DNA of 24,190 nucleotides, taken from positions 1-24,190 of the IMG/VR virus record IMGVR_UViG_3300031841_002377. One strand, given 5' to 3'. The notes below the pieces were generated by a model. The model had not been told where the DNA came from. It searched no databases and saw nothing but the letters and a program-made list of their open reading frames with translations. Shown here one piece after another: positions 2,643 to 15,582 of this stretch. Source of the stretch: a virus. The translations under genes were made by a program, and so were the position numbers. How positions within the stretch are numbered: the first letter of the stretch is position 1; each line of letters begins with the position of its first letter.

Positions 2643-3129
2643 ATACAACTGGGACAAAGATTCGTCCGCTGCGTTACTTTACTTTGTAGAAAATGTATCG
2701 GGTCCTTGGCACCCAAGTCAATGGTCAGTTATTGTAGAGCTTTGTAGTCAGATTGCTTCTTGGGAAGGTGAGAGACTTCCAGCTTCAACTCCAAGTAAAG
2801 CAAGAAGAAGTAACTTACACATTGCGCCTATGATGCAAGTCTTTATACAAGCGTTAACAAACGCTGAATATTTTGATGATGTGGATGATTTCTTTAAATT
2901 TATGGGAATGGCTCAAAGCGACCAAGTATTTTCAATGTTTAGATTTTGGATGCGTATAGATGCTCCAATAGATAAAGATGATGAGTACTGGACTGACTTT
3001 GTAACTCACATTACTGAATACAAAGAAAATTTAGAAGAGTTAAACACTGTTATTAGTTCTTATTCAGATGAACAAATTGCAGAAGAAATTGAAATGTTAA
3101 GGCAATCTTTTAATTTAGAGGAAGAGTAA
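2623..3129 (+). CDS. Hypothetical acidic protein, 168 aa
   Basis: Starts at ATG 2623, inside the last 20 bases of the preceding gene, with AAGGAG about nine bases upstream. The protein is acidic, helical and tryptophan-containing (GPWHPSQWSVIVELCSQIAS near 27-46; FRFWMRIDAP near 105-114), and ends NLEEE. The final Glu codons carry GAGGAAGAG, the ribosome binding site for the gene at 3130. No family was recognised. Confidence 0.8.
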   Translation: MDIEENKYNWDKDSSAALLYFVENVSGPWHPSQWSVIVELCSQIASWEGERLPASTPSKARRSNLHIAPMMQVFIQALTNAEYFDDVDDFFKFMGMAQSDQVFSMFRFWMRIDAPIDKDDEYWTDFVTHITEYKENLEELNTVISSYSDEQIAEEIEMLRQSFNLEEE

Positions 3130-4089: not shown

Positions 4090-4883
4090 TGGATAATATA
4101 GATAAAGTACAACAAAACACTTTGATGCCTTTTGAACAAATGAAAAAGGAAACCAAAGATTTAATTAATGAGAAAGGCAACGCTAGGCCTTCAGAGGTAG
4201 ATGCCGTTGGTATCTCACAACAATACTGGATGGCGGACTTTCGCTCTATGTGGAATACAGAGTATCCACGTTCCGCAGAGAAATGGAATGAAGACTTTTG
4301 GGCGAGTTGGTATAAAAACTTTTCAGCATTTACAAGACAAGATATTGAATATGCTTTTAATGAAGTTAGAAAAGTTAAAAGAGATATGCCACCTAACTTA
4401 AGTCACTTACATGACTTCTGCGCTAACAACGCTCAGAAAAGAATTAAGATAGCAGATGTAAAGTCTGGTTCTAAGTGTAAAGATATTGAGGCGGGGAAAT
4501 GCGAATACGGTGACCCATACTGGCAATTAACTAAGTATGGGACACACGTATTTCAACTTATGTGTATTTTCAGATGTGATAAATCAATTGATGGTTATCC
4601 AAATGAATTTCAGAAAAAACATAAGCCACAAGCTCAGACTAAAGGTACTTGGTTTACTAATGTAGCAAAACTTTTATCCAATAGTGATGCTCCAATCTTT
4701 AATTCTGGTAAGACTCAGAAAGATAGAAAGTTTGAGACTTATCAGTACGCTGAGTTATTTCCCGATGGAAATATTAAAGAGGTTCTAAAAGCTCATAACT
4801 TAGATGAGAATCTTTCTTTTGTAGAGCAATGTCAACAAATTGCAGAGCTACCAAGAAAAGAGACAATACTAAGCAATGTTTAG
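4089..4883 (+). CDS. Putative replication protein, helicase-loader (lambda P)-like, 264 aa
   Basis: Last long gene of the early operon, coupled by TAATG to the membrane peptide. Residues 47-111 contain an aromatic helical region (WASWYKNFSAFTRQDIEYAF) followed by PPNLSHLHDFC at 101-111. This W...F-T-x-x-x-I...P-P-x-L/F-x-x-F-C arrangement is how lambda P-type replisome loaders look. Residues C130, C138, C159 and C163 could form a metal site in the C-terminal half. No ATPase motif is present, as expected for lambda P rather than DnaC. The assignment rests on one motif by eye; a DNA-binding protein of another kind is possible. A terminator 86 bases downstream closes the operon. Confidence 0.45.
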   Translation: MDNIDKVQQNTLMPFEQMKKETKDLINEKGNARPSEVDAVGISQQYWMADFRSMWNTEYPRSAEKWNEDFWASWYKNFSAFTRQDIEYAFNEVRKVKRDMPPNLSHLHDFCANNAQKRIKIADVKSGSKCKDIEAGKCEYGDPYWQLTKYGTHVFQLMCIFRCDKSIDGYPNEFQKKHKPQAQTKGTWFTNVAKLLSNSDAPIFNSGKTQKDRKFETYQYAELFPDGNIKEVLKAHNLDENLSFVEQCQQIAELPRKETILSNV

Positions 4884-4953
4884 AAATTGGGAAATTTCAA
4901 GATGGTACAATGGTTATGTCGGCTTCCCTAGAAGTGGAAACACTTCGAGCTGA
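4876..4953 (+). CDS. Possible micropeptide, 25 aa
   Basis: An ATG at 4876 overlaps the last eight bases of the preceding gene and opens a 25-codon frame (MFRNWEISRWYNGYVGFPRS, then GNTSS) that ends 15 bases before the operon terminator. It fills the space exactly as other tiny genes in this operon do, but its ribosome binding site is poor (AAGAGA). It may instead be untranslated 3' sequence; a GAAATT/AATTTC hairpin lies at 4883-4898. Confidence 0.3.
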   Translation: MFRNWEISRWYNGYVGFPRSGNTSS

Positions 4954-4968
4954 CTGCCCTCCCATCAA

Positions 4969-5003
4969 CAGCTTTGCCTTCGGGCGAAGCTGTATTTTTT
5001 TTT
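4969..5003 (+). terminator. Strong intrinsic terminator of the early operon
   Basis: CAGCTTTGCC (4969-4978) pairs with GGCGAAGCTG (4983-4992), one wobble, around a stable TTCG tetraloop, followed by TA and nine T residues (4995-5003). All elements of a Rho-independent terminator are present. Confidence 0.92.
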
Positions 5004-5055
5004 CTTAAATTGACTTGCATTTTAAAACGACGTCATCTATGTTAAGAGTATGTCT

Positions 5056-5069
5056 GTATGACAAAAAAC
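5056..5069 (+). repeat. Copy 2 of the 14-base intergenic repeat
   Basis: GTATGACAAAAAAC, identical to 1046-1059. It lies just upstream of the structured gene-free region and could mark its promoter; a TTGCAT (5015-5020), 17-base spacer, TATGTT (5038-5043) pair is the best sigma70-like candidate nearby, but weak. Confidence 0.35.
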
Positions 5070-5099
5070 GTATTGAGTATGAAACAATTAAATAAAGCT

Positions 5100-5480
5100 A
5101 ATCGACTGTCTTAAAAAGGGGCCATAAAACGGAAAGCTTGAATACTTCGGGTGGGTAGCCCAAAAAGGTCAAGCAAGTACTAATTAAAAATCCTAAAATA
5201 AGGGCAAAATCGCTGGCTATTCAACAAAACAGCATAAGAACCATTTCGGTGTGTCATCGGTGGGGAAAGTAAGTGATTAAGCACCGACTTTGCGTTGTTG
5301 ATGTGTCGTTTGTCTAAATCGAAATGTTAGGGGGGTGGCAGTTTAAAATTGTAGCGTTGCATAGGGAGCAATTGGTAAAAAAGGCTTAGGCCTCGACCCT
5401 TGTAAGTCACTGAAAAGAATTTAATTGTTTTAAGTTTGGATTGGCCCAGTAGACATACTGGGTCGTCCTTACAAAGAATT
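5100..5480 (+). ncRNA. Candidate structured RNA or long structured leader
   Basis: The stretch between the early terminator and the gene at 5503 has no credible gene on either strand, is richer in G+C (about 42% over 5101-5340) than the surrounding genes, and holds many paired segments. GCTTGA 5136-5141 pairs with TCAAGC 5169-5174 around TGGG-TAG-CCCA. CATTTCG 5242-5248 pairs with CGAAATG 5320-5326 and encloses TCGGTG 5257-5262 / CACCGA 5282-5287. CCCAGTA 5445-5451 pairs with TACTGGG 5456-5462 (GACA loop), enclosed by TTGTAAG 5400-5406 / CTTACAA 5468-5474. CGACCC 5394-5399 could alternatively pair with GGGTCG 5460-5465, giving a pseudoknot or a switch. It could be a trans-acting RNA, an antitermination leader for the late operon, or a packaging-site element. 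Boundaries are approximate; no known RNA class was recognised. Confidence 0.55.
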
Positions 5481-5502
5481 TAAGCAAACAGAAAGGGCAG
5501 AA

Positions 5503-6174
5503 ATGTCAAGTTATACAGACCAAGATAAAAATTATACACAATGCGCAAAATGCGCAGAACCATTGGAACCAAATAACCAAGGTGCATTAGATATTAGCTA
5601 TAACGGTGGTTATGGTGATTTCGTAGACAATTACGATGGGGAAGAATTATTCTTTCGTCTTTGTCACAAGCACGCTCATCAATTTACTAACTGGTTAGGT
5701 AATCCATCAGCAATACACCCAAGTGCAGGTCATTCTCACAATGGTTCAGAAAAAGGTTTTTGGTATGGCCATATTGGTTGGGACCAAAAAACTTGGTTGT
5801 CACACCTACGTACTTTTACGTGGTGGCTATTTAAAACACGTAGCTTTAAAAAAGCTTGGTCTGAATTAGTTCATTCAGTTAAAAGTCACATTACGTGGAC
5901 TCGTTCTAATATTAACGATTCAAGTACACCAGTTGTTTGGTCACAATTCTTTTTTAAATTGTTTTTCTTAGACAATGCTTATGCTGGTACAGTTACCGCA
6001 TTAAAGCGTAAGCTCACTGTTTGGAAACACCAAAAAGCTAAAAAAATATATCGTAAATACAAGTCTCTTTACTCAGAAATTTGGGAAAGTGCTATTTACG
6101 GTAAACTCACAGAATCCGAAAAATCTTTAATTATGGATATTGGTGAAGCTTTAAAACAGCAAGAAGAAGAGTAA
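5503..6174 (+). CDS. Zinc-binding protein of actinophage type, 223 aa
   Basis: ATG 5503 follows a moderate ribosome binding site (AAAGGG). The N-terminal 80 residues carry C14-x2-C17, then GALDISYNGGYGDFVDNYDG, then C54-x2-H57 with further histidines at 59, 77 and 79. I recall actinophage proteins with the same order (CxxC, GGYG-F-D, LCHxCAH, SHxH); here the second cysteine of the last pair is a histidine. The C-terminal half is Trp/Lys-rich with a hydrophobic patch (SQFFFKLFFLDNAYAG near 147-162) and ends QQEEE. All six arginine codons are CGT, whereas neighbouring genes mostly use AGA, suggesting high expression or a different origin. Position just before the terminase is where a small terminase might be, but nothing in it resembles one. 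Function unknown. Confidence 0.75.
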   Translation: MSSYTDQDKNYTQCAKCAEPLEPNNQGALDISYNGGYGDFVDNYDGEELFFRLCHKHAHQFTNWLGNPSAIHPSAGHSHNGSEKGFWYGHIGWDQKTWLSHLRTFTWWLFKTRSFKKAWSELVHSVKSHITWTRSNINDSSTPVVWSQFFFKLFFLDNAYAGTVTALKRKLTVWKHQKAKKIYRKYKSLYSEIWESAIYGKLTESEKSLIMDIGEALKQQEEE

Positions 6175-6184
6175 TCTTTTTCAA

Positions 6185-6213
6185 AAAGGGGGTATTGCTA
6201 CAATATCCCCTTT
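6185..6213 (+). terminator. 13-bp hairpin between zinc protein and terminase
   Basis: 6185-6197 pairs with 6201-6213 through 13 base pairs (one G-T) around a three-base CTA loop. The T run after it is short, and the stem is followed by the -10 box of the terminase promoter. It may terminate or attenuate the upstream transcript, or mark an RNA processing site. Confidence 0.5.
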
Positions 6214-7499: not shown

Positions 7500-10043
7500 A
7501 TGGCTGAAGAGAAAAGTTTTTACAGAAGAGCGGTTGAATACTTACAAGCACCGCCCGAAAGACAAGTTAAAGGTTTAACATATAATCAAAGCACAAACAG
7601 TGCTTTAGATTCTGCTGTATTCGGATACAATACAAGTTCGGGTGCATTTCCAGCTAAATTACTAGAAGATATTGGCGAGGGAACTGGTAATTCAGCTGTT
7701 GTCGCTTGTATCAATGTTTTAGCTACCGCTTTCGCAGAACCAGTCCTTAAAGTAATGACTAAAACTACTGATGGTGATGAAGAGCAAATGCTTCATCCAG
7801 TCGAAAAACTTTTACAAAGACCTAATCCTTTTACATCGGGTCCTTTACTTTCCCACTACATCGTTACAGCATTAAACGCTAGCGGTGACGCATATTTATT
7901 AAAGATAAGAAATTCTTCGGGCCGAGTCATACAACTAATCCCAATGATGCCCGACAGAGTTACCCCTCGTGGCAATGAAGATGAATTAATTACTCATTAC
8001 GAGTATTACGGTTCATCTAAGACAATGGGCGAATTCGTTGTTCTCAAGAAAGACGATTTAGTTCATATCCGACAAGGAATAGACCCAAACAATCACAGAC
8101 GTGGTTTTGCTCCTCTTAAATCTGTTTTAAGAGAACTCGTAGGTGATGAAGCTGCTGGTCAATATGCAACAGCATTACTTCACAATATGGCAGTGCCAGG
8201 CGTTATTCTTTCTCCGAAAGATGACTCTAACGGCGGACCGTCAAGAGAAGAAGCAGAAGCTATTGCTAAAATGTATAAATCTAAATTTGGTGGTGCAAAT
8301 AGAGGCGCTCCTATGGTTCTTACTGGACCAATGGATGTTAAACCAGTATCTTTTTCTCCAGACCAAATGGATTTAAAAGAACTTAGAAGACTTCCCGAAG
8401 AGAGAGTTTCTGCAGTTTTAGGTGTCCCAGCGATTCTCGCAGGCCTAGGAGCTGGTCTAGATGCGGCGACCTACAACAATACGAAAGAATTAAGAGAATT
8501 CTTTACTGAGCAAAAACTTATTCCTTTATGGAAAACAGTTGCTAATGAATTAACACATCAGTTACTTCTTTCAGACTTTACAAATGACGAAGCTACTTAC
8601 TGTGCTTATGACTTGAATATGGTCAGAGCTTTAGCTTCCGATAAAGATTCAACATACAAGAGAATGAATATGGCTGTTGCTGGTGGTTGGGCTACAATCT
8701 CAGAAGCTAGAAAAGCAGCTCATTTAGATGTTGATGAAACCCACGATGTTTATTTACGTCCACTTAACATGGTCGCTGTTCCTATAGAACAAGGTAACCA
8801 ACCATATCAGATTCAAGAAACACAAGAAGCTGATAAAAGTATTTCTACAAAAGACACATTGTCAACAGAGGATTTCGGAGTTGAGTCAGTAAGACAAGAT
8901 GTTGTTGCAATGACTGATGAACCAAGAAACGAAGAAAAGTATATTGCCGAAATGCCTAACGGTGCTTTTTGTATTATTGACCATGATACTGAAAAAGTAA
9001 TTGAATGTTTTAAAACAGAAGCTGCTGCTGAAAGAGCATTAGCTGATATGAAAAAATCAATTGCTGAAGAAAAAGCTGCTGTTTCAGCTAAGGTTAAAAA
9101 AACTTTACAAAAAAAAGTAAAAGAACACAACGATAAAAATCCTAAGTACAGAGCTACTTATGGAATGTTGGCCGCAGTATTTAGACGAGGTGTTGGTGCC
9201 TATAGAACTAACCCAGCTTCAGTGCGAGGTAATGTAACTGGTGCAACCCAGTGGGGAATAGCCAGAGTGAACGCCTTTATAAAAGGTCTTAAAGGTAAAT
9301 TTCCTAGAAGTGCTTTCGACCAAGATTTACTTCCTAGTGGTCACCCACTAAGTTCAAAAAAATCAGCTAAAGCTGAATCAGTTAAAACTGGTGATACTGT
9401 TAGCTGGTCAATAAATAAAGACCCAGACCCACCTTCAACGGTGCATGGTGTAGTTACTTCTGTCAACAGTGAGAAGAAAGAAGCAACTATGATGGTATGG
9501 GCCATTATGGAAGACGGTTCTCATAAAAAAACTGATAGAAGTGTAGTTCAGCCAATTTCTAAATTAAAAAAAATTAAAGATTGGCGTAAAGAGGAAAAAG
9601 CAAAAGATGATGTTACTAACTTCCCTAGAAGTGGAGATAACCAAAAAATATCTCTTTCTAACTCACAATACAAACAGTTTCCAGATTTCAAGTACGTACA
9701 AGACTTGAAAGACAACTACCCAACAATTTGGCGTAGAGCTGGCACTGGAGGAAACCCTCCTACTTCATTCACTGGTAATGATGCATTTAACAGATGGTCA
9801 AAATATAAAAAAGGTGATAGAAGTCCAGCAGTTCTCTCTTGGGTAAAAAGAAGAGAACGATTTATGAATCGTCACAAAAACAACAATAGGCTAAACGGTG
9901 CTATTGCTGTTATGAAATGGGGCGGTGTTACAACTGGTGGAGTTTCACAAATGAAGAAGCTTGTGAATGAACAGAAGAAAAAAGTAGACGCTAGAAAGAA
10001 AAAAGCTAAGCTTTTAGTTTCTGAGAAAACCGCTAAAAAATAG
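7500..10043 (+). CDS. Portal protein with a long multi-module C-terminal extension
   Basis: Residues 1 to about 425 are an HK97-type portal, the dodecameric ring at the capsid vertex through which DNA enters (NSAVVACINVLATAFAEPVL early on; later LRRLPEERVSAVLGVPAILA). Portals usually end there, but the frame continues without a stop to 847 residues. After an acidic linker come: a short module near 480-519 (FCIIDHDTEKVIECF then an Ala/Glu helix); a basic module near 540-617 (RRGVGAYRTNPASVRGNVTG ... DLLPSGHPLS); a Tudor/SH3-like DUF2945-type module near 627-690 (VKTGDTVSW ... TVHGVVTSV); and a very basic C-terminal module (SPAVLSWVKRRERFMNRH, AVMKWGGVTTGG, Lys-rich tail). These modules are familiar from marine phage head proteins. 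ATG 7500 is preferred; a GTG at 7482 would add six residues and overlap the terminase. Confidence 0.9.
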   Translation: MAEEKSFYRRAVEYLQAPPERQVKGLTYNQSTNSALDSAVFGYNTSSGAFPAKLLEDIGEGTGNSAVVACINVLATAFAEPVLKVMTKTTDGDEEQMLHPVEKLLQRPNPFTSGPLLSHYIVTALNASGDAYLLKIRNSSGRVIQLIPMMPDRVTPRGNEDELITHYEYYGSSKTMGEFVVLKKDDLVHIRQGIDPNNHRRGFAPLKSVLRELVGDEAAGQYATALLHNMAVPGVILSPKDDSNGGPSREEAEAIAKMYKSKFGGANRGAPMVLTGPMDVKPVSFSPDQMDLKELRRLPEERVSAVLGVPAILAGLGAGLDAATYNNTKELREFFTEQKLIPLWKTVANELTHQLLLSDFTNDEATYCAYDLNMVRALASDKDSTYKRMNMAVAGGWATISEARKAAHLDVDETHDVYLRPLNMVAVPIEQGNQPYQIQETQEADKSISTKDTLSTEDFGVESVRQDVVAMTDEPRNEEKYIAEMPNGAFCIIDHDTEKVIECFKTEAAAERALADMKKSIAEEKAAVSAKVKKTLQKKVKEHNDKNPKYRATYGMLAAVFRRGVGAYRTNPASVRGNVTGATQWGIARVNAFIKGLKGKFPRSAFDQDLLPSGHPLSSKKSAKAESVKTGDTVSWSINKDPDPPSTVHGVVTSVNSEKKEATMMVWAIMEDGSHKKTDRSVVQPISKLKKIKDWRKEEKAKDDVTNFPRSGDNQKISLSNSQYKQFPDFKYVQDLKDNYPTIWRRAGTGGNPPTSFTGNDAFNRWSKYKKGDRSPAVLSWVKRRERFMNRHKNNNRLNGAIAVMKWGGVTTGGVSQMKKLVNEQKKKVDARKKKAKLLVSEKTAKK

Positions 10044-10086: not shown

Positions 10087-11349
10087 TTGAATAAAGAATC
10101 TAAAAATTTCGAGTTTAAAACAATTGATGACGAAAAAGGCTCAGTCGAAGCTGTCTTTTCTGTTTTTAACAATATGGATACAGATGGTGACGTCATGGTA
10201 CCAGGCTCAATAAAGTCTGGATTTAAAGATAATCAAGTGCCGATGGTCTTCGCTCACAAGTGGGACCAGCCAATTGGAAAAGGAGTCATCTCTCAAGATG
10301 AAAACAAAGCAGTATTTAAAGGTAGCTTTTTTATGGATACCGAGGCTGGTAAGGAGGCCTATGCACTGGCCAAAGGAATGGGAGACTTACAAGAGTGGTC
10401 CTTCGGATTTAGAATTGATGACGCAGAAGTAAAAGCTTTTCAATCAGAAGAAATGGAAGAAGAAGTGGAAGCACGTTTTATTAAAAGTGCAACTGTGTAC
10501 GAAGTATCCCCAGTACTAGTTGGCGCAAATCGTGAAACCTATACTCTTGCTATAAAGTCTGGCGAAGAAGCCGTTTATGAAGACGCTTTAAAAGCTCTTC
10601 CTAAAGATTTATTTGAAACACAAGAAGAAGCAGAAAAAAGAGCTCAAGAACTAGGTTGTTCTGGTTCTCATAAAGAAATGTATGAAGGCAAAGAATACTA
10701 TATGCCTTGTAATGACCACGCTTCTTACTTATCTTCAATGGAAAAAAGTTTAAGGAACGACGTCGAAGAAAAAGACGCTTCCGAAGATTCTGAATCTAAT
10801 ACTAGCGTGCAAGGTATGAGATTTTCAGACGAGGTAAAAGATGTGCTTGCTGCATTAGATAGCCTCATTGTAAGAGCAACTAGCATAGGCGAGTTGCGAA
10901 AGGGAGAGGGCAGAAAGTTGTCAGATAATGCAACTTCCGCACTTAGAGCAGTTCAAGAAGACTTGAACGATGCTTGGGCCGAAATTGACCAACTCATTGA
11001 GGACGTCAGTCTCGTACCAGCCGATTCTGAAGAAACAATAACAGAAGAGGAAACACTAGAAGCTGAAACTGCTGAGGCCGAGGAAATCGTCTCAGAAGTT
11101 GAAGAATCATCTGCTGAGGAAATCGTAGATGAAGCTACTACTGTAGAATCTGAAGTTGCTGTTGAACCAGAAGAGGAAGAAGCATCTGAAGAATCTTCAG
11201 AAGAAATGGAAACTGAAATAGCTGAAGCAGAAGCTCCAGTTGCTGAAGTTTCTGAAACTCCTCAAGAGCTTATGGAAGATGATTCTGATTTATTCGCGGA
11301 AACACAGCAAATACTTGCTGATGCTTCGATAGCGGAAATCGACGAATAA
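10087..11349 (+). CDS. Prohead protease (S78 family) fused to zinc-knuckle and acidic scaffold-like tail
   Basis: The serine protease that processes the capsid precursor during head maturation. Catalytic His57 lies in FAHKWDQPIGK and Ser105 in LQEWSFGF, both typical of caudoviral S78 proteases, in a domain of about 155 residues. The remaining 265 residues are unusual. A module at about 174-215 has C191-x3-H195 and C208-x2-H211 (GCSGSHKEMYEGKEYYMPCN), plausibly metal-binding. A helical stretch follows, and from about residue 305 the sequence is extremely Glu-rich, like a scaffold or delta domain. The start is TTG 10087: AGGGGA lies seven bases upstream and no ATG fits. Such protease-scaffold fusions would place both activities inside the prohead; that is inference. 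Confidence 0.9.
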   Translation: MNKESKNFEFKTIDDEKGSVEAVFSVFNNMDTDGDVMVPGSIKSGFKDNQVPMVFAHKWDQPIGKGVISQDENKAVFKGSFFMDTEAGKEAYALAKGMGDLQEWSFGFRIDDAEVKAFQSEEMEEEVEARFIKSATVYEVSPVLVGANRETYTLAIKSGEEAVYEDALKALPKDLFETQEEAEKRAQELGCSGSHKEMYEGKEYYMPCNDHASYLSSMEKSLRNDVEEKDASEDSESNTSVQGMRFSDEVKDVLAALDSLIVRATSIGELRKGEGRKLSDNATSALRAVQEDLNDAWAEIDQLIEDVSLVPADSEETITEEETLEAETAEAEEIVSEVEESSAEEIVDEATTVESEVAVEPEEEEASEESSEEMETEIAEAEAPVAEVSETPQELMEDDSDLFAETQQILADASIAEIDE

Positions 11350-14092: not shown

Positions 14093-14165
14093 TCAGATTT
14101 TCGCATACAGCGCAAACAACTTTACCTTCTGGGACAGGACGTCCGCAATCTAAACATTTAGACAT
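14070..14165 (-). CDS. Tiny zinc-ribbon protein, 31 aa
   Basis: Last gene of the leftward operon. The frame runs from ATG 14165, overlapping the stop of the SET-domain gene by eight bases, to TAG at 14072-14070. The product begins MSKCLDCGRPVPEGKVVCAV and has C4-x2-C7 and C18-x2-C21, a complete zinc-ribbon pattern with 10 residues between the pairs. Its 3' end overlaps the converging FmdB-type gene. A perfect cysteine pattern in so short a frame, coupled to an upstream gene, makes it likely to be real. Confidence 0.65.
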   Translation of the reverse strand: MSKCLDCGRPVPEGKVVCAVCENLTKTVSFS

Positions 14166-14460
14166 CATATAAAGTATATGTTAGCAGAATTTCTTCGTCT
14201 GGCATAACATCCTTATTTATCAAAAGATAGTAATACTTACCAATCTGTATAAGTTCACTGTTTGAATCTTCACTGTGGTTTATAAAACCACCTAAAGGTG
14301 TTCTTATTCGGTTATCTTCAAAATCACTGTTTTCTATGTGAGACACACCTAAGTTTGTACCTTTAGAAATTATTTGCGTCGAGAATAGGCCTAAGCCCTC
14401 GATAGGAGAGTTTTTAACGGTTACTTCTTCGGGAAGGGGCCGATAGTTATCTTTTTCCAT
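14158..14460 (-). CDS. SET-domain protein (putative lysine methyltransferase), 100 aa
   Basis: SET domains transfer a methyl group from S-adenosylmethionine to protein lysines. The motifs are in order: GLGLFST (22-28), NHS (61-63), and DEEILLTYTLYD (88-99), which corresponds to the GEEL..DY end motif with Tyr95 as the expected catalytic tyrosine. At 100 residues it is a minimal SET domain without the post-SET zinc site. ATG 14460 is preferred because GAGAGGG precedes it by four bases; the frame is open 12 codons further upstream. The start overlaps the preceding zinc-ribbon gene. The target, phage or host protein, is unknown. Confidence 0.8.
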   Translation of the reverse strand: MEKDNYRPLPEEVTVKNSPIEGLGLFSTQIISKGTNLGVSHIENSDFEDNRIRTPLGGFINHSEDSNSELIQIGKYYYLLINKDVMPDEEILLTYTLYDV

Positions 14461-14566
14461 TTTCCCTCTCAGATAACGAAAAATAACATTCATCACAAAT
14501 TATAAGGGAGTCTTTGAAGTTTAAAGGTTCTTTGCATTTAACACAATGCGTTCTTTCATTCGCCAT
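14447..14566 (-). CDS. Tiny zinc-ribbon protein, 39 aa
   Basis: Frame from ATG 14566 to TAA at 14449-14447. The product begins MANERTHCVKCKEPLNFKDS and has C8-x2-C11 and C24-x2-C27. The start overlaps the end of the preceding gene by 11 bases and the end overlaps the SET gene start by 14, so it sits within a chain of coupled genes. The ribosome binding site is weak, consistent with translation by coupling. It is a separate protein from the 31-residue ribbon 300 bases downstream, but of the same style. Role unknown. Confidence 0.68.
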   Translation of the reverse strand: MANERTHCVKCKEPLNFKDSLIICDECYFSLSERENGKR

Positions 14567-14714
14567 CTTCAAACCACTCTTTAGGAAATCCCTCATTATT
14601 TTTTTCAATTTCCCATAAACGCATTTCGTTTTGCCATTCTAGACGTTCAACTAGATGTTCTAGACCGTTAATAACGGATTCTAATAATCGTACAAGTATT
14701 CTTCTGAGCGCCAT
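14556..14714 (-). CDS. Small helical protein, 52 aa
   Basis: Frame from ATG 14714 (alternative ATG at 14726 gives 56 aa) to TGA at 14558-14556. GGGAAAAG precedes the 14714 start. It begins inside the 3' end of the lysin gene and ends inside the next zinc-ribbon gene. The sequence is amphipathic and leucine-rich (MALRRILVRLLESVINGLEH, then LVERLEWQNEMRLWE), ending FPKEWFEDGE. A helical, possibly membrane-associated or partner-binding peptide is plausible; its position after a lysin would suit a lysis accessory, but that is inference. Confidence 0.6.
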   Translation of the reverse strand: MALRRILVRLLESVINGLEHLVERLEWQNEMRLWEIEKNNEGFPKEWFEDGE

Positions 14715-15232
14715 TTCTTTTCCCATTTCTTTTCGTTACCCCAGCAAAATTTGCTAGCGTTCCAATCTTTCCAATTAAGTTTACTATAAGTATCTTCGGC
14801 AAGCAAGGATGCCATTTGGATATTGTAATAAGGTACGAACTGAACACGACGAGCTGACAAACCATCCTCATTAATACCTAAGAGTGAACCGAAGTACGGT
14901 TGCCCGTACCTCAGTATTATCCACTCATTCCATTTGGGCATATTATGCTTTGCAGCTACCCAATCCCACGTGGATGGAATAAATTGCATTACTCCCGAAT
15001 CATCTGCTGATTTTCTATAAGCAGAAGATTTGCCTCTGCTCTCACACCAACCAATTCTTACGGCAGTATATAAATTTTCTTCGTCAAAATGTTCTACGTA
15101 TTCGGGTAAGTGTTGAACCATATTTTTTGGTATGTTATCTAAACATCCAACAATTTCGTTTAAGTTAGTAGTAGAGAGCTGGGTATCCCCTTGTCCAAAA
15201 CTGGCTATTAATAATATGCAACTTGTAATCAT
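14681..15232 (-). CDS. Transglycosylase/lysozyme-like lysin, 183 aa
   Basis: Probable cell-wall hydrolase cleaving peptidoglycan glycan strands. The core reads RIGWCESRGKSSAYRKSADD followed by SGVMQFIPSTWDWVA: Glu64 in ESRG is the expected catalytic acid, and SGVMQF-x3-TW is the usual second signature of SLT/resuscitation-promoting-factor-like domains. C63 and C163 could form a disulfide. The N terminus (MITSCILLIASFGQ) is short and hydrophobic, an imperfect signal peptide lacking basic residues. It may be an endolysin or a virion-associated enzyme. The TATATT box six bases before ATG 15232, with TTGACA 18 bases further up, gives it its own leaderless promoter. Confidence 0.75.
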   Translation of the reverse strand: MITSCILLIASFGQGDTQLSTTNLNEIVGCLDNIPKNMVQHLPEYVEHFDEENLYTAVRIGWCESRGKSSAYRKSADDSGVMQFIPSTWDWVAAKHNMPKWNEWIILRYGQPYFGSLLGINEDGLSARRVQFVPYYNIQMASLLAEDTYSKLNWKDWNASKFCWGNEKKWEKKWRSEEYLYDY

Positions 15233-15238
15233 AGGGTT

Positions 15239-15268
15239 AATATAAGTGACCTATGGTCTTGTTGTCAA
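15239..15268 (-). promoter_or_regulatory. Leaderless promoter of the lysin operon
   Basis: On the minus strand: TTGACA (15268-15263), 18-base spacer, TATATT (15244-15239), then AACCCT and ATG 15232. There is no Shine-Dalgarno. The -35 box overlaps the stop of the upstream gene. Confidence 0.65.
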
Positions 15269-15495
15269 CTATTTAATTTTTTTTCAGCATCAGCTATAGC
15301 TAGAGATTTAGAATTACCTACTCCAAATGAAACTTGAGACATCCCAATCTTGCCTCTTTCATTCATGTAGCTCTTAAATATCTGAGCTTCGAAGACTAAC
15401 ATATAATCGTTATAAGAAACGTTATAGGTATAGCCCTCTTTTTCAAACTGTTCGTTCAAAAAAGCTGGTGCATCATCTTGTCTAATGTCTACCAT
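15265..15495 (-). CDS. Hypothetical protein, 76 aa
   Basis: Leftward gene upstream of the lysin. ATG 15495 is preferred; a GTG at 15513 would add six residues. An extended -10 box (TGTTAGAAT, 15512-15504) ends eight bases before this ATG and the ribosome binding site is poor, again a leaderless layout. The protein begins MVDIRQDDAPAFLNEQFEKE and contains an aromatic middle (YTYNVSYNDYMLVFEAQIFK), then a likely C-terminal helix. It looks like a small soluble alpha/beta domain. No family was recognised. Confidence 0.65.
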   Translation of the reverse strand: MVDIRQDDAPAFLNEQFEKEGYTYNVSYNDYMLVFEAQIFKSYMNERGKIGMSQVSFGVGNSKSLAIADAEKKLNS

Positions 15496-15503
15496 TACTC
15501 TTA

Positions 15504-15512
15504 ATTCTAACA
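15504..15512 (-). promoter_or_regulatory. Extended -10 promoter of the 76-aa gene
   Basis: TGTTAGAAT on the minus strand (TGn plus TAGAAT). It is overlapped by the inverted repeat CTAAC/GTTAG (15507-15511 and 15518-15522), which could be an operator. No clear -35 is seen. Confidence 0.45.
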
Positions 15513-15582
15513 CACTTTGTTAGCTGAAATCACGAAATTCGTAAAAAACACCAAAAAAAAATAAAAAAAATTATTTAAGCCT

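Follow-up and report, generated by a model that had tools for sequence, protein, structure and literature searches.

A conserved structured RNA between the early and late genes of a group of uncultured tailed phages

The gene-free region and its flanks

The 24,190-nt stretch of viral DNA analysed here, which we call the window, belongs to an uncultured tailed phage: TerL, a prohead protease and an HK97-type capsid protein are all encoded in it. Between the gene that ends at 4883 and the first late gene, which starts at 5503, lie 619 nt with no credible gene (4884-5502), and the only ORF of at least 50 aa there is one that terminates at 5008. The first-pass annotation had described about 500 gene-free bases in a genome whose genes otherwise overlap. 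The first part of that description holds and the second is only roughly right, as this is the largest intergenic gap in the window but others of 367, 232, 207 and 151 nt follow it. The region was also said to be G-richer than its surroundings, which it is to a modest degree (23.2% G versus 20.5% for the window). It contains a terminator, a promoter-like site, the RNA region and a hairpin, all on the plus strand, as are the other features below unless stated otherwise. Stops occur in every forward frame of the RNA core (5-13 per frame in each of nine homologs), and indels in the strongly conserved DNA of the window clade are not multiples of three, so that the RNA region is noncoding; the protein-like conservation named earlier as a sign against an RNA is absent.

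The strong terminator noted upstream is present. It is the intrinsic terminator of the early operon, an 11-bp stem followed by T9 (4968-4993), and it is conserved in relatives. On its 5' side is a further element (4918-4969), in which a stem of GUCGGCU (4918-4924) and AGCUGAC (4948-4954) surrounds GAAGUG/CACUUC and is followed by GCCCUCCCAUCAAC. This element is near-identical across the window-clade relatives and is a neighbour of the RNA, outside it; it could be another small structured RNA, or else a signal linked to the terminator. A similar element, with the same stem and GCCCUCCCAUCAAC, is also found before terL in L025 (about 2970-3010), a phage without the RNA.

Past the terminator is a candidate promoter (5015-5043), with TTGCAT at 5015-5020, a 17-nt spacer and TATGTT at 5038-5043. 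Promoter-like counterparts occupy the same place in relatives: TTGACA-17-TATGAT in L020 and TTGACA-17-TAAGAT in L013, which are nearest the consensus, and TTGACT-17-TATTGT in L012. These sites were read by eye, and that of the window falls below the threshold of our promoter scan (9 of 12) and is not listed by it. The spacer includes one copy (5029-5034) of the palindrome GACGTC, which occurs six times in the window versus 1.5 expected; in L006 and L007 there are two copies of the promoter and its palindrome, with a small ORF inserted between them.

At the other end of the RNA, directly after its closing helix P1, is a stable hairpin (5438-5468; about -22 kcal/mol). A stable hairpin stands at this position in every lineage, its structure kept and its sequence largely replaced, and the perfect hairpin 5445-5451/5456-5462 that the first-pass annotation quoted is its core. 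It has a T-rich tail in L020 and a poor T tract in the window. The hairpin may terminate a fraction of the transcripts, undergo processing, or delimit the RNA. In L018 and L019 the hairpin region is enlarged and two mutually exclusive helices are possible, one a short hairpin of AAGCUACC with GGUAGCUU, the other long and directed towards the late gene, an arrangement that looks switch-like as far as the sequences can tell.

The first late gene (5503-6174) lies outside the RNA and encodes a 223-aa Cys/His-rich protein that has no match in Pfam, PHROG or PADLOC. It is directly upstream of terL, and most of the related contigs examined have a homolog that can be recognised; phages without the RNA have it upstream of terL as well. 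Between this ORF and terL, just before the TerL start, is a 13-bp hairpin, AAAGGGGGTATTG/CAATATCCCCTTT, at 6185-6213. Farther into the plus-strand late operon there is a minus-strand cassette (14158-15513) whose products include a SET-domain protein (Pfam PF00856) and, just under the curated cut-off, a transglycosylase-like one (PF01464). Proteins ending in EEE or EEEE are common in the window, for example those of the genes ending at 3129, 4015, 6174 and 15954; such ends apparently arise because the last codons of a gene also serve the next one as a purine-rich ribosome-binding site of the GAGGAAGA type.

Relatives and distribution

Relatives were gathered by way of TerL in IMG/VR, which gave 23 contigs with a TerL 87-100% identical over its full length. 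The RNA region is present in all 20 of those that reach far enough upstream, and the remaining three begin too near terL to include it. As all close relatives in which the site could be checked have the RNA, it is probably worth its cost in so compact a genome. The core is 347 nt long in the window and 334-347 nt in full-length relatives. Four relatives (L003, L006, L008 and L012) have about 75 additional bases before P1, which by eye look able to form another hairpin.

A diverged copy, L151, resides in a separate 71.8-kb phage contig, G001, whose terminase is 67% identical. It was first picked up by a scan with a 17-nt motif from the P3b region; against a covariance model built without it, L151 scores 139 bits (E 7e-43) over the full length. 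The setting is different. The RNA is at 9643-9976 of G001, 10.7 kb upstream of TerL (20658), and the first ORFs to follow it (10111-10284 and 10357-10806) run on the other strand. It is preceded by one small ORF and by an ArdC-like anti-restriction gene, the latter a neighbour seen once. The front of L151 has a promoter-like site of its own, TTGACA-17-CAATAT.

How far does the RNA extend beyond these phages? Other contigs with a TerL about 62-72% identical to that of the window, many of them fragments and several longer than 20 kb, gave no convincing RNA match, and the noncoding gaps upstream of terL in the sister phages whose spacers were examined held small genes and no diverged RNA. DNA similarity to 50,697 phage and 72,556 plasmid records revealed nothing meaningful, so that neither a cultured phage nor a plasmid matched. 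Among the matches from six motif scans of viral contigs, only L151 was real besides the group itself, the others scoring as chance. Searching 84,980 genomes of bacteria and archaea with one motif gave 54 matches, none of them full-length; the best two lie inside clpX- and aroC-like reading frames. A covariance-model search of sampled Pelagibacterales and Actinomycetota genomes, with stricter filters that make it a weak negative, found none.

The sister phages carry iron-sulphur genes, IscA-like (PF01521) and ferredoxin (PF13459), at 2452-2796 of L104 and 919-1173 of L226. In a comparison with two bacterial groups, their IscA-like protein matches an Actinomycetota genome at 61%, and Pelagibacterales at 42% at best; this is no more than a hint that the host is an actinobacterium.

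A fold conserved by compensatory change

Folded singly, the sequences are unremarkable, with z of -1.46 for the window and -0.5 to -2.3 for six homologs; the window alone would thus not prove structure, and the case rests on comparison. Eleven sequences were placed in a structure-blind alignment, A2, and helices were then written down by inspection. In A2, 19 of 77 pairs change on both sides yet stay paired, versus 7.6 ± 1.5 in shuffles and 1-3 in slid controls, in which the partner strand is moved by 1-3 columns; 98.2% of cells are paired. With L151 and three truncated homologs added, the count rises to 34 double-change pairs versus 10.4 ± 2.1 in shuffles. A search of all column pairs then revealed P1b, P6b and a candidate long-range helix, P12, and the fuller structure has double changes at 42 of 85 pairs (shuffles 11.9 ± 2.3, slid controls 2-8), again with 98.2% of cells paired. 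Since the sequences are related, shuffles overstate the significance of these counts; the slid controls retain the relatedness, and the changes occur in several separate lineages. The later alignment was fitted to the model, and includes about six lineages and one distant homolog. G-U cells number 121 versus 4 A-C cells, which identifies the plus strand as the structured one. Compensatory changes at the same locus in relatives, which the first-pass annotation had proposed to look for, are therefore found above controls by pair counts. Taken together, the comparison shows a conserved structured RNA on the plus strand with a core at 5083-5429, identified through covariance-model matches and covariation counts, and we regard the existence of a folded RNA as nearly certain. 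The headline of the first-pass annotation, a candidate new structured RNA, is strongly supported.

Seventeen helices, with about 85 base pairs among them, make up the fold; besides the closing helix and the internal domains there is one pseudoknot that is well placed and another that is a candidate. In the closing helix, P1 (5083-5093/5419-5429), double changes affect 6 of 11 pairs, every one of them owing to L151, where P1 is a completely different and equally perfect helix, AAUUAAAAGGU/ACCUUUUAAUU. Inside it, P1b joins GCUA (5097-5100) to UAGC (5352-5355) and reads CUAA/UUAG in L151. P2 (5104-5110/5337-5343) has three pairs with double changes in several lineages and 100% of its cells paired; its inner six pairs are ACUGUC/GGCAGU, ACGGUC/GGCCGU, GUAGUC/GACUAC or GCUGUC/GGCAGC, according to lineage.

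The P3 hairpin (5136-5174) is built on P3 itself (5136-5141/5169-5174), where five of six pairs change on both sides, and is capped by P3a (5145-5147/5165-5167) and the invariant P3b (5149-5161; GGGU-GGGUA-GCCC), the invariant sequence of the cap being GGGUGGGUAGCCC. P4 pairs CCUAA (5192-5196) with UUAGG (5327-5331) and varies as CCUAA/UUAGG, CCUAG/CUAGG and CCUUA/CGAGG. The main domain (5204-5313) consists of P5 (5204-5208/5309-5313; four of five pairs change on both sides), P6 (5215-5217/5305-5307), P6a (5221-5226/5296-5301; six of six) and P6b (5232-5233/5292-5293), and carries two hairpins. One is formed by P7 and P7a (5241-5263), with double changes at four of nine pairs and P7 reading CCAU/GUGG, CUAU/GUAG or ACCU/GGGU by lineage; the other is P8 (5266-5270/5287-5291).

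The 3' part of the RNA, after the 3' strand of P2, holds the P1b/P9 pseudoknot, a conserved A-rich strand, GRUAAAAAAG, and the hairpin P11. P9 pairs AAUUG (5347-5351) with CAAUU (5369-5373), so crossing P1b, and is paired in 15 of 15 sequences. Being nearly invariant, P9 is suggested by its complementarity and weakly by covariation. An alternative helix for the P9 partner, GUUGC/GCAAU, suits the window clade and fails in L151, and reading the P1b/P9 arrangement as group I-like was given up, as an equivalent of P6 is missing and the space left for P8 is too small. P11 (5382-5393) has the form AGNC-UUNG-GNCU, its third pair being A-U in seven sequences, G-C in five and U-A in three.

The second, long-range pseudoknot is the candidate P12, in which AUAAGG (5198-5203) probably pairs with CCUUGU (5398-5403). 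Three of its pairs show double changes, all through L151, and L023 breaks two pairs. It competes with GGG (5364-5366)/CCC (5397-5399), and the two are indistinguishable from each other. P12 and P1b are less certain than P2, P3, P4, P5, P6a and P7, because they rest largely on L151.

The first-pass annotation had quoted five nested pairs, all of them perfectly complementary. Two are borne out, the core of the 3' hairpin and 5136-5141/5169-5174, which is P3. The other three are not: of the 7 pairs of 5242-5248/5320-5326, 2-5 survive in the relatives that are more remote, 5257-5262/5282-5287 lacks support and conflicts with helices that do covary, and the relatives aligned have not kept 5400-5406/5468-5474.

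Proposed role and comparison with known RNAs

What might such an RNA do? We think it probable that it is a discrete trans-acting phage RNA with its own predicted promoter, possibly also leading the late operon. The promoter-like site would drive the RNA, and from its position just past the early terminator the RNA would be made around the early-to-late switch. The hairpin after P1 would end, process or shield it. Some of the transcription in the window clade probably continues into the late operon; only a hairpin with a poor T tract intervenes there, so that the RNA may be mainly a 5' leader in these phages. The RNA would act in trans on a host or phage partner, whether a protein, the ribosome, RNA polymerase or its own copies. 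Its role is most likely host takeover or counter-defence, a guess prompted by the RNA's being found apart from the late operon or not at all, and by one neighbour gene. If the RNA does act in trans, marine phages would have in it an RNA tool of a new kind for use on their hosts. We also lean, with somewhat less assurance, towards seeing here the founding example of a new class, a large pseudoknotted trans-acting RNA of uncultured marine phages whose structure is strongly selected independently of its position, and which might be a ribozyme, an assembly made of RNA only, or an RNA for host takeover or counter-defence.

The case for action in trans comes largely from the single relocated copy, L151. 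That relocation, together with the absence of the RNA from sister phages, argues against a packaging element and against a late-operon antiterminator, and given its distribution the RNA seems to be a constant component of neither the packaging motor nor the late operon. Three options had been offered by the first-pass annotation, and a trans-acting RNA is the best fit among them; an antitermination leader is possible in the window clade and at odds with the G001 copy, and a packaging-site element is disfavoured.

The main rival, which we find conceivable if unlikely, is that the RNA is a cis-acting leader of the late operon, one that as nascent RNA binds RNA polymerase in the manner of HK022 put, so that terminators are read through, or that forms a processed 5' end. 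Its position suits a leader: a promoter-like site precedes it and the first late gene follows on the same strand after only a hairpin, and every window-clade contig has the RNA at that place. The G001 copy however is far from the late operon, with the next ORFs on the other strand, and sister phages have the same late operon without the RNA. The put RNAs are likewise phage RNA elements that come soon after a promoter, but they are about 70 nt with two stem-loops (PMC9378689), several times smaller than this RNA of about 350 nt and 17 helices.

Might it be a known RNA so diverged that the models missed it, such as tmRNA, RNase P RNA, a group I or II intron, GOLLD, ROOL, OLE or HEARO? Its size, closing helix and pseudoknots are generally similar to such RNAs, yet we find this very improbable. 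No family in Rfam 15, GOLLD, ROOL, OLE and HEARO included, matches the window at gathering thresholds, and with E values up to 10 nothing came near gathering for the window or for the L048 (L020-type), L009, L023 and L151 copies. RNase P RNA gave no Rfam match even at that E value. ARAGORN found no tmRNA or tRNA in the window, and no tRNA in G001, G002 or G003. The introns have no Rfam match either, and the RNA sits between a terminator and a complete ORF, with no interrupted gene, no splice context and no partner gene. The earlier failure to match tmRNA, tRNA, RNase P or intron signatures is thereby upheld. In the literature searched, mostly outside subscription journals, no description of this RNA was found.

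We give scarcely any credence to a cos or pac site in the DNA, or to a packaging-motor RNA like the pRNA of phi29. The RNA is indeed about 0.8 kb upstream of terL in the window clade, and phi29 pRNA, of about 170 nt, is also a phage noncoding RNA. But covariation and the excess of G-U pairs mark constraint on an RNA rather than on a double-stranded DNA site, and the present RNA is larger than pRNA, has no Rfam match, is not tied to terL, as the distance in G001 indicates, and is absent from phages with related terminases in the contigs searched. Finally, fortuitous complementarity within an A+T-rich spacer, or the decay of a gene, would suit the unexceptional single-sequence folding. Compensatory changes in several lineages refute this reading, the high conservation and the stops in all forward frames speak against it as well, and it merits practically no weight.

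Phage small regulatory RNAs (PMC12197685) resemble this RNA in being phage-encoded and likely made during infection; here, however, a large conserved fold is selected, not a short pairing region.

The structures solved for GOLLD and ROOL are unexpected RNA-only assemblies of unknown function, and to our knowledge few large structured RNAs are known from phages. The present RNA shares with these two that it is phage-encoded, large, heavily structured and pseudoknotted. GOLLD and ROOL are large, structured, pseudoknotted RNAs of phages and prophages, with no known protein partner or function; a ROOL example has 659 nt and many GOLLD RNAs exceed 800 nt (PMC12286853). At about 350 nt this RNA is shorter, and it does not match their Rfam models. 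GOLLD and ROOL are often near tRNA islands, whereas neither the window nor the three related contigs have a tRNA. The apical loops here are short (UGU, UUNG and GGGUA), with no palindromic covarying loop seen. The RNA is thus a new family with its own fold, kin in kind to GOLLD and ROOL and a member of neither. As a further, unrelated fold beside theirs, it is short enough for synthesis and imaging, and both a covariance model and a map of its helices are at hand.
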